Shown: positions 3,674 through 12,192 of the stretch, piece after piece
How the letters are laid out: every line of letters starts with the position of its first letter
How positions within the stretch are numbered: the stretch's first letter is position 1
IMG/VR virus record: IMGVR_UViG_3300037502_002385
Span: 1 to 33,689 of that record
Strand: one strand, 5' to 3'
DNA length: 33,689 bases
Source: a virus
Made by a program: the position numbers and the translations under genes
Notes under the pieces: model-generated
Told to the model about the DNA's origin: nothing
Seen by the model: the letters and a program-made list of their open reading frames with translations, nothing else
The model's database searches: none

Positions 3674-3686
3674 GTTCGATCCTGTC

Positions 3687-3726
3687 GGTTATGCGCGGTT
3701 ATGCGCGGTTATGCGCGGTTATGCGC
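3687..3726. repeat. Four perfect tandem copies of a 10-bp repeat in the recT leader
   Basis: GGTTATGCGC is repeated at 3687, 3697, 3707 and 3717 with no mismatch. On the transcribed (minus) strand this is GCGCATAACC, ending directly before the ribosome site of the recT-like gene (CCGACAGGA). It lies in the 67-base gap between two leftward genes. The exact 10-bp period would place copies on one helix face, as in an operator, but simple slippage expansion of the leader is equally possible. Confidence 0.9.
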
Positions 3727-6464: not shown

Positions 6465-9227
6465 TCACCACAGATCGGGGTCGTCGGGCGGTGGCTGCGG
6501 CACCTGCGCGCCCTTCGTCGTCGTCGGGCTGTCAGACCAGACGAAGCGTGACAGAGCCGCATCCGTCAACACGTACGCACGCACCTTGCCACCCGACAGG
6601 CTCACGACCTTCGACACCTTCGACCCGCTGCCGCCTTCAACCCACCGGAGTTCCGACCACGCCGACGCCACGGCGCCGATCTGGAAGCCTGCCGCCTTCA
6701 TCATGTCGTTGGCGGCAGACACGACGACCGCAAGGCGCGGCTTGCCCGTCGGGCTAGGGTACCAGACGCCGATCACGTCGCGGCTGACCTTGTCGTGGTC
6801 GGGGTGGTCGTGCAGCTGCGTCGAACGCATCAACGCCCACTCGACAAGCCGCTGCATCGCCGACGTTGCCACGTCAGCCCCGCGACCACGCGCCACCATG
6901 TCAGCCCACCGCTCTGCTGTCAGCCATCCGCTGCGCGCCTGCAGGCCTAGCACCTGCTCGGCAACTTCACCGACCAGTCGCACGAAGGCGGCGTACTCGG
7001 CAAGCCGCGACCCGACAGGGTGGCCGGGGCTTTGCAGTTCGACGTCGGCGGCGACCGCGTTGCACAAGGCGCGGTACCGCGCACGCAGCCCCCGACGCTC
7101 GTCGGTCGTCAGGCCTGCCACGTACCCGGCGAAGATGCGACCCGCGTGCCCGTGGTGGTCGGTCAGGCGGTCGATGACGTCGCGCTGGAAGGCTGCGATC
7201 GCGTCGCTGAAACGTTCTTGTGCCGACCCGCGCCCCCACGGTGGCCCCCACAACGTCAGGATGCGCGCACGCGCGCCACCCGCGTCGCCGAAGTCTGCGA
7301 TCGTCTGTTCGCCGGTGCTGATGACAAGCGACTCGAACTGCGACGTGTTGCGAGCGCCACCCGCTTTCTCGCCCCGCATTCGACCGTTCGTCGTCGTCAG
7401 GTCGTACACGGTCTTCTGCACCTGGTCGGGCTTCGCGCGCTGCGTCTCGTCGATGCAGACCGACAGCCCCCGCACCGCGTTGACGTGCAGTTCTAGCGCG
7501 TAGGGGGTCGAATCCCATTTCAGCATCGCGTCAGGCGACCCGTTGACGCTGGCGGCCACTTGCATCGCCTTCGTCTTGCCCTTCGACGTGACGCTGCAGA
7601 TGTCTAGCACGAACACCGGCGCCGACACCACCCGCAGCAACGGCGAACCAAGCGCCACGGCGATGATGGTCGCAAGGTCGGGGCTGTGGTCGATCACCCG
7701 CTGCAGGGTGGCGACGTGCTGCGACAGCGTGCCGCTGGTCGTGTGCTTGCCCACCCACTTCGTCATCGCCGCGTTCGTCGATTCAAAGTGCGGGCAGCCG
7801 ACCCCGAAGCGGTCAGTACCGAACAGGAACGCAGGCGCCTGCCAGTCGGTCGCCCCGTGCCACCCGGTCGCGCTGCTGACGAACTCGGCCTCTGCCCGTT
7901 CGTGCCGCTGCAGGTACGCCGTTTCACTGGCGTGCAGGTACTCGACCACGGCTGCGGCTGTGTTCGTGTCGACGGGGAAGCCCGACGACTGCAGGTCGAC
8001 GATCTTGCGCGAGTTCAACAGCACCGACCGATCGACCGTCCGCTGCCGCAGGTCGAACCCGTCGCCGTTCGGTCGATGCCACCTGACGACCACGGCGTGC
8101 GAGTCGTCGATCGCGTCGATGCGAACACCGGCAACCCACAGCGGCACCGACACGACCGCGCGCGGCACGCCCTCCACGACCCGCGAAACGCCCTTGTGGC
8201 TGCAAAGGTAGGGCAGCGGCGCCCACATCCCGTCCGCACCTGGCGCGACCTCTTCGACGCCCTCGGCAGGCACGTCTTCGACCGACCACGGCGTCAGCCC
8301 CGCCTGCAGCTGCTGACGCACCACGGCGACCCCGTGCGTTGACGCTAGGTCGTTCCAGTCGCTGCCGCGACCTTCGAAGCCGTCAGGCCAGCGCGGCAGC
8401 ACCGCTAGGCCGTTGCACTGGCCTGCCGCCTCTTCGGCTTTGACCTTGCCGGGGTTCTTCGACTTCTGCTTCCAGTCGTCATCGCCGCAGACCACAAGCC
8501 GCGCGTCGGGGTACTTCGCCCGCAGCGCCTTCGTGACCGGCAGCAGGTTGCCACAGTCGAACGCGACCGCGACTGGCCACCCCGTCGCTTCGTGCACCGT
8601 CGCGCCCGTGGCGTAGCCTTCGACGACTGCGATCACGTTGTCGGCGTGCGGTCTGCCGATCGAATGGTAGCAGCCCGGCACCGCGACGCCCTTGCCGAAG
8701 CGCTTGTCGGTACCGTCTGCCAACTTGGCGGCGAAGATGGTCTGCAGCCCTCGCAACTCGCCTGCCGAGTTCCGCAGCGGCACGAAGAGCCGATCGCCGT
8801 CGCGGCGCAGGCCGTAGGCTGCGACTGCCTTGCGCGTCAGGTAGGGGTGCCCCGCGCAGTCGGTGCTGGCGGCTTCCCACGTCGCGGCGGCGCCTGCTGC
8901 AGCAGCGTCGGCGGCTGCGACCCGCTCCGCTTCGCGCTTGCTCCGATCCTTGGCGATCTTCGCATTCAGCGCGTCAAGGTCGCCACCCGCAAGCGCCGGG
9001 CCTTCGAAGCGCCACGTCGTGCCGCCCTGACCGTCGGCAAGGTTGTCGAACCACCCCGACGGGCGTTCGTCAAGGTGCAGCAGGTACCGCCCGTTCCGCG
9101 CCTTCGGCTTGTCTTCGGTCGGGCAGCGGTGGATCTTGCCGTCGGCGACCAGCGACGCGGGGGCGATGATGCCGCGCGCTTGCATCGCTGCTCGAAAGGC
9201 GTCTTCAACTGTCTGCAAGTTCGTCAT
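6465..9227 (-). CDS. Primase-helicase-like protein: TOPRIM domain plus DUF927-type ATPase
   Basis: 920 residues. The N-terminal part resembles TOPRIM primases: VIAVVEGYATGATVHEATG with Glu203, then VVCGDDD (about 246-251) and SDWND (289-293). From about 345 a DUF927-type domain follows, with P-loop SVTSKGKT (545-552; the usual first Gly is Ser), Walker B CIDETQRAK (591-599), NGRMRGEKAG and ISTGE (636-640), the order known for this family. It probably primes and unwinds phage DNA. ATG at 9227 overlaps the upstream helicase stop as ATGA; the longer frame to 9296 lacks such support. A cryptic PP-rich C-terminus ends the protein. I infer it is the replication initiator/primase of this polymerase-less phage. 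Confidence 0.87.
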   Translation of the reverse strand: MTNLQTVEDAFRAAMQARGIIAPASLVADGKIHRCPTEDKPKARNGRYLLHLDERPSGWFDNLADGQGGTTWRFEGPALAGGDLDALNAKIAKDRSKREAERVAAADAAAAGAAATWEAASTDCAGHPYLTRKAVAAYGLRRDGDRLFVPLRNSAGELRGLQTIFAAKLADGTDKRFGKGVAVPGCYHSIGRPHADNVIAVVEGYATGATVHEATGWPVAVAFDCGNLLPVTKALRAKYPDARLVVCGDDDWKQKSKNPGKVKAEEAAGQCNGLAVLPRWPDGFEGRGSDWNDLASTHGVAVVRQQLQAGLTPWSVEDVPAEGVEEVAPGADGMWAPLPYLCSHKGVSRVVEGVPRAVVSVPLWVAGVRIDAIDDSHAVVVRWHRPNGDGFDLRQRTVDRSVLLNSRKIVDLQSSGFPVDTNTAAAVVEYLHASETAYLQRHERAEAEFVSSATGWHGATDWQAPAFLFGTDRFGVGCPHFESTNAAMTKWVGKHTTSGTLSQHVATLQRVIDHSPDLATIIAVALGSPLLRVVSAPVFVLDICSVTSKGKTKAMQVAASVNGSPDAMLKWDSTPYALELHVNAVRGLSVCIDETQRAKPDQVQKTVYDLTTTNGRMRGEKAGGARNTSQFESLVISTGEQTIADFGDAGGARARILTLWGPPWGRGSAQERFSDAIAAFQRDVIDRLTDHHGHAGRIFAGYVAGLTTDERRGLRARYRALCNAVAADVELQSPGHPVGSRLAEYAAFVRLVGEVAEQVLGLQARSGWLTAERWADMVARGRGADVATSAMQRLVEWALMRSTQLHDHPDHDKVSRDVIGVWYPSPTGKPRLAVVVSAANDMMKAAGFQIGAVASAWSELRWVEGGSGSKVSKVVSLSGGKVRAYVLTDAALSRFVWSDSPTTTKGAQVPQPPPDDPDLW

Positions 9228-10948
9228 GATTGCACCTTCCGCGCCTTGGCGGCGCCCTTCGCGGCTTCGACAACGGAGGCGGCGTCTAACGCCCACTGCG
9301 ACAGCACCGCAACAGTCGCGTTCTGCGCCGACAGGTCGAAGTGACCGGCAGCGTCAGGTCGCGCAGGCTTCAGCGCTTCGTCAAGGCAGATGAAGTCTGA
9401 CACGATGCCTTTGCGAAGGGTGGTCGGTTCCTTTGCCTGGAACGTGTACAGGTGCTCGTCAAGCAGCAGGTCGTACGCGTGCGCGATGGCCTTGGCGACG
9501 GGTTCGGGCCTCCGCTTCAGCATCGCCATCCGGCGCTGCGCCCGCTCCAGTCGAACCAACTGCGGCGCCGACGCGGGCTGGTGGCGCCACGCCCCTAGTT
9601 CGTGCTGCGGCAGCGGCACTAGCCCCTTGCCACGCAGCACCGCGACGCACTCGCTGACGAAGCCCGTCGACACCGCGTGCGCGACGGCGATGGTCTGCAC
9701 CGACGTGCGCGCCTTCGATTCGCGCGGCACCCGGTACACCTTGCCCGTCAGCGGGTCGACCAGTTCGATCGTGTCAATGGGCTGCAGTTCCTCTTCGACT
9801 TCCTCGGCAACGTCGACGAACGCACCTGCCAACTGCGACGGGTGGCTGATGCCGTGCTGCACGAACAGCCCGTACGGGTCGAACAGGTCGGCGACCGACT
9901 TGCCCGGCGACGAACGCAGGAAGCGACCGACTTCCTGCACGAACCCGACCCGACCACGCGGGCGGCGAAGGCAGCCCCACCGAAGCCACGGCAGGTCGAC
10001 ACCCTCGACGAGGATCTGCACGTGCACAAGGCAGTCGAGTTCGCCCGACTGCAGCGCCTCCAGTCGTGCCTTGCGAATGTCTGCCGACTGGTTCGAATGG
10101 ATGGTCATCGCCCGCACGCCGACGTCAGACAGCCGAACGGCGAAGGCCTCCGCATCGACGACGTTGTGCGCACTGACGACACCGGGGCCGCGCTGCTGCT
10201 GCACCCACCGAATCGAAGCGGCGTCAACGATCGCCTTCTGCTCTTCGGCGATCAGGTCGCGGCGGGGGTCGCCTGCCTTCAACAGTTCCGCAGCTGCGGC
10301 AAGGTCGTTGACGCGCCTGGCGTCGTGCGACGACAGCCCCGAAGCCGACCACGGCACTAGCACCCCGTCGGCAAGCGCGTCGTCGATGCTGTACCTGTCG
10401 AGTTCGTGCAGCCACAACGTCAGCCCCTTCGACGGGTCGGGGTTCGACTTGTACGGCGTCGCCGACCACCCGATGCGCGGCACGTCGGCGATCTGCTCGG
10501 CAGGCTTCAGGATCTGCGGGTTGTCAGTCCGGTGGCATTCGTCGGCGCACCACACTGCCACCCGGCGACCTGCCTTCGACAGCGCGCGCAGGCATTCGTC
10601 GAAGGAGGGGTGGCAAGTTACGACCACCCGCTGCGACACGTCTTTGCCGTGGGTGTAGTAGACCCCGACGGGTTCGCCTAGCCGCTGCACAAGGGTCGCC
10701 GACAGCTGCTGAACGAGAGCGACCGTGGGCGTCGTCACGACCACCACGTCAGCCGACCCCGTCAGCCGCGTCAGAAGGTCGGCGACCACCTCGGCAAGCA
10801 GGATCGACTTGCCCGACCCCGTCGCTGCCGCGAACACGCCCGCAGACAACTGCCCGGCGTCGCGTGCTGCCACGTAGGCGGCGAAGGCTTCGACCTGGCA
10901 CCGGCGCGGCGCACGACCCGACCAGTTCGACACGCTGGGCGAACTCAC
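9224..10948 (-). CDS. SF2 DEAD-like helicase/ATPase
   Basis: 574 residues. Superfamily 2 motifs: motif I AATGSGKS (41-48), motif II DECH (136-139), motif III SATP (162-165), a second RecA-like half with VEGVDLPWLRWG (about 314-325), and motif VI QEVGRFLR (338-345). This layout is found in phage and restriction-type helicases such as UvsW-like enzymes. It could unwind or branch-migrate DNA for origin opening or recombination-dependent replication. The C-terminal 200 residues lack known motifs. GTG start at 10948 overlaps the upstream small gene as GTGA, and its own stop overlaps the primase-helicase start, so the three genes are coupled. Confidence 0.9.
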   Translation of the reverse strand: MSSPSVSNWSGRAPRRCQVEAFAAYVAARDAGQLSAGVFAAATGSGKSILLAEVVADLLTRLTGSADVVVVTTPTVALVQQLSATLVQRLGEPVGVYYTHGKDVSQRVVVTCHPSFDECLRALSKAGRRVAVWCADECHRTDNPQILKPAEQIADVPRIGWSATPYKSNPDPSKGLTLWLHELDRYSIDDALADGVLVPWSASGLSSHDARRVNDLAAAAELLKAGDPRRDLIAEEQKAIVDAASIRWVQQQRGPGVVSAHNVVDAEAFAVRLSDVGVRAMTIHSNQSADIRKARLEALQSGELDCLVHVQILVEGVDLPWLRWGCLRRPRGRVGFVQEVGRFLRSSPGKSVADLFDPYGLFVQHGISHPSQLAGAFVDVAEEVEEELQPIDTIELVDPLTGKVYRVPRESKARTSVQTIAVAHAVSTGFVSECVAVLRGKGLVPLPQHELGAWRHQPASAPQLVRLERAQRRMAMLKRRPEPVAKAIAHAYDLLLDEHLYTFQAKEPTTLRKGIVSDFICLDEALKPARPDAAGHFDLSAQNATVAVLSQWALDAASVVEAAKGAAKARKVQS

Positions 10949-11148
10949 GGCGCACCCCGCAGGCTGTCGGTCGCGGCCTTCGCGCGCACAAGGTCGTCGG
11001 CAAGCGCCACGATACCGCGCTCGACGGCAAGCGCCATCGCCGCAGACACGCTGCGGCCGGTCAGTGCCGAGTACGCGATCAGCGCTTCGTCGACGTGGGG
11101 GGGCAAAGTGGTGTCGCGTCGCCGCGCACCCGCATTTGGGCTAGTCAT
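10945..11148 (-). CDS. Ribbon-helix-helix-like small protein, first gene of the leftward operon
   Basis: 67 residues from ATG at 11148; the leader CAGGATCGAAGATG matches other leftward starts. The core RDTTLPPHVDEALIAYSALT followed by GRSVSAAMALAVERGIV fits the strand-helix-helix pattern of CopG/Arc-type DNA-binding proteins: a short strand, a helix, a Gly-containing turn and a second helix. This is a pattern judgement, not a confirmed family hit. As the first gene beside a large repeat-rich control region, it is a candidate for binding those repeats and regulating its own operon or replication. Confidence 0.7.
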   Translation of the reverse strand: MTSPNAGARRRDTTLPPHVDEALIAYSALTGRSVSAAMALAVERGIVALADDLVRAKAATDSLRGAP

Positions 11149-11182
11149 CTTCGATCCTGACGTGTGAGGGGAGAGCGGCACA

Positions 11183-11226
11183 GCACCGCACGCGCACCGT
11201 AGCAGCACCGCGCAGGCACCGCAAGT
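11183..11226. repeat. Four GCACCG repeats at an exact 11-bp period
   Basis: GCACCG starts at 11183, 11194, 11205 and 11216, each followed by five variable bases, so the cores are spaced by 11 bp, about one helical turn. They lie 35-78 bases upstream of the start of the ribbon-helix-helix-like gene, where an operator or early promoter is expected. Confidence 0.85.
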
Positions 11227-11306
11227 GCAATCGACTGCAGCGGTAACAGGGTAACAGGTGGGGTAGTTACCGCTAAGTGTCGCAATCGAAAGGCAAAAAG
11301 GGGCAT

Positions 11307-11445
11307 GGTAACAGGTAACAGGCAAAATGTTGTGTCTATACGCGCGTGAGAAACTTTGATCGATCGATCATCGCCAAGTGAAGTGATCGCATCGTGTCTC
11401 GCTTCCAAACACATACGGTATCGTTTTTGCCTGTTACCTGTTACC
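11307..11445. repeat. Perfect 21-bp inverted repeat with about 97-bp spacer
   Basis: The arm at 11307-11327 is exactly complementary to the arm at 11425-11445. Each arm holds two overlapping GGTAACAGG elements plus an A/T run (CAAAA or TTTTG). The spacer contains the GATC cluster. Perfect symmetry over 21 bp points to binding of a protein on both sides of a central segment. Confidence 0.92.
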
Positions 11446-11479
11446 GCGACCGTTTTCGCGTGTCGTTTCAACGATCTAA

Positions 11480-11502
11480 CGGTAACAGGCCGCCTGTTAC
11501 CG
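11480..11502. repeat. 23-bp palindrome made of two GGTAACAGG elements
   Basis: CGGTAACAGGC at 11480-11490 pairs with GCCTGTTACCG at 11492-11502 around one central base. It is the tightest inverted pair of the array and lies nearest the rightward genes, so it could be a dimer binding site. Confidence 0.9.
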
Positions 11503-11736
11503 CTGTTACCGTTTACACGGGCAAAAACGAGCGTCTGCACGGGTGCTGTCTTGTGGGAGCGACCGTGCAGAGAGGGCTACGCCCCCCACAGCCCCGCTGT
11601 GAAGTCGAAGGTGAAGTGATCGACTAGGCTGCGCCACGCTGGCCTAGCCTGGCGACCTGCTTGACGCAAGGCAGGGGGTGGCGTTAGGGGTCGGGGCAGG
11701 GCGGAGAATTGCACGCGCGAGATAGGGTGCCGAAGA

Positions 11737-12192
11737 ATGTACACCCGCGAACAGAAGATCGAACTGCAGCGCCGGGCGTGGGAACTTCGCCTGCGCGGCA
11801 TGACGCAGCACGACATCGCGACCGAACTGCAGGTGTCGCAGCCGTTCGTCTGCAACCTGCTGAAGAAGGCGCGCGAAGAGCTAGTCGAGCAGAACCGACT
11901 CGACGCTGCGACCGCGACTGGCGAGCAGGTCGGGCGACTCGACCGGATGATCGCGGCGCTGACGCCTGCAGCCGACGCTGGCGACGTCAAGGCGGTGCAG
12001 GCCTTGCTAGCCGTCGAAGACCGGCGCGCGAAGCTGCTTGGGCTTGACGCTGCGACGCGCAAGGCGGTCGACCTGACGACGGGCGGCGCGCCCCTGGCGT
12101 ACAACGTGCAGATCCCGGTGGTGCAGCGAATCGAGGGCGTCACGGCGCCGCCAGTGCCCGACGAAGGCGCGGACGACGAGCAGCCGCTGTGA
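11737..12192 (+). CDS. Terminase small subunit (probable)
   Basis: 151 residues. The N-terminal 50 form a helix-turn-helix domain (LRGMTQHDIATELQVSQPFV, about 19-38, then CNLLKKAREEL), as expected of a DNA-recognising small terminase. The middle is helical, and the C-terminal tail is acidic and Pro-rich. It sits directly before the large terminase, with overlapping GTGA at 12189-12192. It would select the packaging site and load the motor. ATG at 11737 has only a weak purine-rich site upstream (AGGGTG). Another HTH protein function is possible, but position and size favour terminase. Confidence 0.8.
   Translation: MYTREQKIELQRRAWELRLRGMTQHDIATELQVSQPFVCNLLKKAREELVEQNRLDAATATGEQVGRLDRMIAALTPAADAGDVKAVQALLAVEDRRAKLLGLDAATRKAVDLTTGGAPLAYNVQIPVVQRIEGVTAPPVPDEGADDEQPL

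Follow-up and report, generated by a model that had tools for sequence, protein, structure and literature searches.

A mirrored iteron array as the candidate replication origin of a phage with a Toprim-DUF927 primase-helicase

Between two divergent blocks of genes, the viral DNA considered here carries a dense array of short repeats, and the question arises which protein would bind them and for what function. The stretch analysed, called the window (WIN in pairwise comparisons), is the whole IMG/VR virus contig of 33,689 bp. An initial annotation had preferred a link between the repeats and a small ribbon-helix-helix (RHH) protein. The array is predicted here, with high probability, to be the replication origin of the phage, bound by its Toprim-DUF927 primase-helicase and not by the RHH protein.

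Structure of the array and its surroundings

The array (Table 1) contains eight perfect copies of GGTAACAGG, one copy with a single mismatch and a tenth site, GGTAACTAC, which has a GGTAAC core (11266-11271); the count of eight perfect and two partial copies in the initial annotation was thus correct. None of 100 dinucleotide shuffles reached the number of GGTAACAGG copies in the window, and the array accounts for 10 of all 13 GGTAAC hexamers in the window. A 21-bp inverted repeat (11307-11327/11425-11445) and a 23-bp palindrome (11480-11502), both reported earlier, were confirmed exactly by reading the sequence. Overlooked at that time was a larger order: the ten sites form five mirrored pairs of one large dyad about 11376, with coordinate sums of 22752 for four pairs and 22751 for one, a symmetry which was equalled by 1 of 20,000 random placements of 5 + 5 sites. 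The order of the arms is outer (+ + -), inner (+ + at 7 bp), a core of 107 bp, inner (- - at 7 bp) and outer (+ - -). From the leftward start (11148) to the rightward start (11737) the gap measures 588 bp, and its middle has 46-50% GC, compared to 67% overall, in agreement with the AT-richer gap of about 590 bp described before.

Table 1. Positions of the array, its parts and neighbouring features in the window
Feature	Position	Strand	Remarks
Two-armed iteron array, candidate replication origin	11242..11510	.	Dyad centre 11376; kept in L003-L007
Left outer iteron cluster	11242..11271	.	11242-11250 (+), 11250-11258 (+), 11263-11271 (-, GGTAACTAC)
Left inner tandem pair, 7-bp spacing	11307..11322	+	11307-11315, 11314-11322
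AT-richer core, candidate melting region	11323..11429	.	107 bp, 46% GC vs 67%; four GATC sites
Alternating purine-pyrimidine tract TATACGCGCGTG	11337..11348	+	Adjoins inner pair, toward the replication genes
Right inner tandem pair, 7-bp spacing	11430..11445	-	11430-11438, 11437-11445
Right outer iteron cluster	11481..11510	.	11481-11489 (+), 11493-11501 (-), 11502-11510 (-, one mismatch)
Inverted repeat CTGCACGG...CCGTGCAG	11534..11571	.	Just right of array; kept in all five relatives
Promoter-like TTGCGG-17-TACGGT, leftward operon (putative)	11196..11224	-	Outside array; conserved in relatives (alignment)
67-aa RHH protein, first leftward gene	10945..11148	-	RHH_5 E 0.0015, below cut-off
SF2 (DEAD/ResIII) helicase, second leftward-operon gene	9224..10948	-	Not found in L079
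Toprim-DUF927 primase-helicase, proposed origin-binding initiator	6465..9224	-	Domain matches
C-terminal winged-helix-like domain of primase-helicase, proposed iteron reader	6495..6806	-	PF18662 position
TerS-like HTH protein (terminase small subunit), first rightward gene	11737..12192	+	Rival binder, not supported

Leftward from 11148, the genes encode the RHH-like protein, an SF2 helicase, the Toprim-DUF927 primase-helicase, a RecE/YqaJ-type exonuclease, RecT, a Holliday-junction resolvase-like protein and a DNA methyltransferase. Rightward from 11737 follow a TerS-like protein, TerL, and ORFs which, taken as a block, resemble virion genes. Four 10-bp direct repeats, GGTTATGCGC, are present at 3686-3725, in the interval which separates the RecT gene from the leftward gene that follows it.

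The primase-helicase gave Pfam matches to DUF927 (1.2e-29) and Toprim_3 (3.2e-9), and a match to PF18662 (Cch wHTH) with an E-value of 0.0021, below the Pfam cut-off. Its profile matches solved SaPI-type helicases (PDB 8tch, E 4.6e-20; 5dgk, E 6.2e-6), which is why the array is read as an origin on which two hexamers would assemble, one per arm. The two AF2 models, covering the helicase part and the C-terminal domain, reached pLDDT values of 38 and 47, and a Foldseek search of PDB returned no significant hit; since both models are of low confidence, the fold search is uninformative.

In the proposed mechanism, the C-terminal winged-helix-like domain of the primase-helicase would bind the GGTAACAG iterons, and one helicase hexamer would assemble on each mirrored arm with its inner tandem pair and outer cluster. 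Facing each other across the 107-bp core, the hexamers would open it and then depart in both directions, with primers made by the fused primase. All of this, from binding and the loading of hexamers to melting, direction and origin activity, is predicted from the sequence. The RHH protein probably regulates its own promoter, and would act as the regulator of its operon at the promoter-like element outside the array, rather than binding the array itself. A scan with the sigma-70 consensus picked up no promoter; it is the conservation of this element which suggests the leftward promoter. Two 19-bp direct repeats, 22 bp apart, lie across the promoter-like region (11181-11221) and are a candidate RHH operator.

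Cumulative GC skew is close to its minimum around the array, a position which is confounded by divergent transcription. GATC sites are clustered in the candidate origin core, with 4 in 107 bp compared to 219 in 33.7 kb; the matching core has 5 in the close relative L003 (7952-8056) and 3 in L005. A DNA methyltransferase is encoded by the same phage at 162-1409.

Changes of the repeat word in close relatives

An array was found in the same place in all five close relatives (viral contigs L003-L007), so that its absence from relatives with the same gene, which the initial annotation had named as a refutation, did not occur. The array word is GGTAACAGG/AGTAACAGG in L003, L004, L006 and L007, and GGTAACGGG together with related words in L005. 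Identities between L003 and L005 are 99.1% for TerL, 98.7% for TerS, 96% for the TerS-side flank and 92.5% for the RHH protein, the DNA-contacting strand of which (ARRRDTTLPP) is identical. The array blocks are 53% identical between L003 and L005, and 70% between WIN and L003; for the overall primase, identity is 80.3% for WIN-L003 vs 74.7% for L003-L005. Within the primase, the word would appear to be tracked in part. The signal is mixed, a preference for WIN-L003 (90% vs 79% for L003-L005) being confined to the recognition-helix/wing stretch; the 70-residue winged-helix segment is tied at 83% for both pairs, and over the whole C-terminal tail L003 is nearer to L005 than to the window. A further comparison is provided by L094, whose TerS is 45% identical to that of L003 over the first 60 residues, and whose array is 98-99% identical to the arrays of its relatives L093 and L097-L099. 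In the L003/L005 and L094 comparisons, changes of the word thus go along with the primase more closely than with TerS or RHH.

In the more distant contig L079 the primase is 45% identical to that of the window, and homologues of TerS, TerL, RecT and YqaJ are present. Its array, with the word CGGTAACA and the same core as that of the window, is located between TerS and primase. No RHH gene was detectable in the whole 34-kb contig by a search which finds the RHH genes of L003 and L005, and no SF2 helicase was detectable in the 22.7 kb examined.

These data bear on the RHH protein as a binder. The omega protein of pSM19035 is an RHH protein which acts at parS heptad arrays with 7-bp spacing. The window is similar in having two pairs of sites spaced at 7 bp and a small RHH protein nearby, with a weak RHH_5 match and a gene which adjoins the array; in analogy, the array could be an operator or a partition (parS-like) site for the 67-aa protein. 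However, only four of the ten sites are spaced at 7 bp, and arrays of the same geometry occur elsewhere at spacings of 7-12 bp and without an RHH relative in the loci examined. The initial annotation had taken the 7-bp spacing as a sign of an RHH protein, but spacings of 7-12 bp are normal for the two-armed origin type. It had also suggested looking for coevolution of repeat and protein, of which L003 and L005 gave no indication, the word being different while the DNA-contacting strand is unchanged. In addition, the array is kept in L079, where L003 and L005 served as positive controls for the RHH search, and no ParA-like gene was found among the leftward proteins scanned. An RHH-bound operator or partition site is thus considered very unlikely. 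Of the functions named in the initial annotation (origin, operator or partition site), the alternative of iterons for a helicase/primase origin is supported by the data, whereas the preferred link to the 67-residue protein is not, on account of L079 and L005.

Recurrence of arrays and of the repeat word

A nucleotide search of named phages yielded no relative of the array region, and the single primase sequence as query gave no matches in viral or genome contigs. An alignment-based primase search found relatives in viral contigs and none in genome contigs. Primase relatives bear mirrored arrays of the same geometry with different words (GGTAGGAAC, TGTTGGGT, TCAGACAG); examples by viral contig are GGTAGGAAC in L078, GTTGTGAC in L083, TGTCACAG in L084, ACTAGGGTT in L085, TGTCACAT in L087 and GGTTAGGG in L088 and L092. 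Most such arrays in viral contigs follow directly after the stop codon of the primase/helicase gene. In a frequent form of the arm, 2-3 sites spaced by 8-12 bp are followed by one in inverted orientation; after some 30-60 bp come two or three inner sites at 7-9 bp, and then the core. The helicase domains of the relatives include DUF927, VapE-like and DUF5906. Complete named phages in which the array likewise comes mostly right behind the helicase gene are phiAH14b, PS3, LPPA36 (with one gene between helicase and array), PG1, 1N2-2 and THSA-485A; further complete named phages of this kind are H4907, pAN, Jekyll, phi1422 and FP_Epona. In Arya the array is 2 kb from the primase gene, and no array was found beside the primase gene in FoX2, Mano, Touem01, U10, Mwe-JY13 and L091. 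No RHH relatives were detected in the examined loci of many phages with arrays of other words.

In a gene-blind scan of whole loci, the strongest repeat window was at the 3' end of the helicase gene in about 19 of 31 primase relatives (a hand count, with about 6% expected by chance and relatives that are not phylogenetically independent). The location of the array of the window between divergent transcription blocks might suggest an operator, by which another regulator of phage or host would control both blocks. Yet the arrays of other phages are 3' of the helicase gene and not between divergent starts, ten sites in a near-exact dyad of 269 bp would be unusual for an operator, and the putative leftward promoter lies outside the array; such an operator is considered very unlikely.

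A second common feature among the arrays is an alternating purine-pyrimidine tract in the core (e.g. TATACGCGCG; CG/TATA). Counterparts of the TATACGCGCGTG tract were found in L003, L005, L079, L078 and others. When the loci are oriented with the replication genes to the left, the centre of the tract falls at 0.37-0.53 of the array in 17 loci, for the most part in the half nearer to these genes. The alternating run is unmatched in length by any other window of the same locus for 13 of 22 arrays; in the virus contig studied here, 7% of the other windows have a run at least as long. The tract is not general in a second set of arrays, which was selected by word, and is extreme there only in L028; it is therefore reported as a feature of the group of primase relatives. 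A role of the tract as Z-DNA is speculation.

An exact-word search of viral contigs returned many unrelated arrays. Pairs of GGTAACAGG with conserved spacing overlap TerS genes in L031, L040, L041, L047, L050, L051, L057, L060, L067, L070, L071 and others. These TerS genes (phrog_57 in L050 and L044) lie upstream of gpA-type terminases; no helicase neighbour was found beside the pairs, which are possibly cosB-like. Two-armed GGTAACAGG arrays also occur beside tyrosine integrase genes (L009, L036, L035, L015, L011), in contigs of about 36-40% GC, and contig 2850054899_000001 has two arrays. In L028 (2494-2802), L029 (2699-2990) and L059 (29-383), phages which are otherwise unrelated to the window, GGTAACAGG arrays flank genes for DUF5906, NrS-1-like or VapE helicases. 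The word alone is not diagnostic of its binder, since GGTAACAGG recurs beside TerS or integrase genes without a helicase neighbour.

The overlap of GGTAACAGG pairs with TerS genes in unrelated viral contigs, and the fact that TerS is the first rightward gene, starting 227 bp right of the array, raise the question whether TerS binds the array as a packaging site (pac or cosB). Against this, words differ between L003 and L005 at nearly identical TerS proteins, TerS of L094 has diverged while the array is kept, and in most primase relatives the array is situated by the helicase and not by TerS. The probability of a packaging site would thus appear to be very small, and the primase-helicase remains the preferred binder.

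Relation to known origins and significance

The origins of phage-inducible chromosomal islands (PICIs) always consist of two iteron sets around an AT-rich region (PMC6092414), an organization which, according to a 2018 paper, is shared by no other known replicon. The window has the same arrangement of two iteron sets and an AT-rich core as the pri-rep-ori module of PICIs and SaPIs (PMC6092414, PMC7581432). As in the window and its relatives, PICIs and SaPIs have an initiator helicase of the DUF927 type with an associated primase, and words which vary between elements. The primase of the window is related to the SaPI Rep/Cch helicases by its DUF927, 8tch and 5dgk matches. Its Toprim domain is fused, unlike the primases of SaPIbov1 and SaPI5, which are of the AEP type (PMC7581432). 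In contrast to a helper-dependent satellite, the window is a phage with TerL and a long block of putative late genes. Its array precedes the replication operon on the 5' side, with about 2 kb between it and the primase gene, whereas many primase relatives have the PICI-type placement 3' of the initiator gene. The alternating CG/TATA tract in the core is a further point in which the window differs from PICI/SaPI origins.

The type 1 repeats of the P4 ori, GGTGAACA, are similar to the word of the window. The annotated P4 ori (GenBank), > 10 > 11 > 20 < 45 > 10 >, has the spacing of one arm in L092 (9,10,21,47,9) and THSA-485A (9,11,22,55,9), and the arm of the window is a 2+1+2 variant of the P4 ori spacing. 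The crr repeats of P4 lie directly 3' of the gene for alpha, a distant relative of the primase. In P4, about 4.7 kb separate ori from crr, whereas the arms of the window form one compact dyad; ori and crr may be the arms of one origin type. In THSA-485A, which has a strong PF18662 wHTH (1.8e-18) and the word GGTAACCG, and in other DUF927/VapE/DUF5906 phages, the two-armed array follows directly after the helicase gene, in contrast to the position 5' of the module in the window. The phage records examined have no origin feature annotated at the arrays.

Compact two-armed iteron origins could be a general class in phages with DUF927, VapE/D5 or DUF5906 primase-helicases, with the PICI origins as one branch and P4 ori/crr as a split version, and with many members whose asymmetric core, containing a Z-DNA-prone alternating (CG)n/TATA tract, would decide which arm is opened first. 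This view is put forward tentatively and is more doubtful than probable. The same reservation applies to a built-in polarity of the origin, which, within this general class, would follow from the location of the tract mostly toward the replication genes.

The origin type itself is already known from PICIs and P4. What would appear to be new, short of a proof of novelty, is its recurrence in complete tailed phages, its 5' position relative to the operon in the group of the window, and the core tract. No description of two-armed origins in these phages was found in the literature searched, the coverage of which is incomplete, and neither an origin nor iterons are mentioned in the publication on Marinobacter phage PS3.

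For an otherwise uncharacterised phage, a probable origin is thus located. The search rule, i.e., a mirrored array of 7-9-bp repeats beside a Toprim/DUF927/VapE primase-helicase, yielded candidate origins in complete phages of both Gram-negative and Gram-positive hosts. A recognition code could be sought in the many words read by related helicases, which form a naturally occurring data set for it. The occurrence of a PICI-type organization also in complete tailed phages bears on the ancestry of the PICIs.
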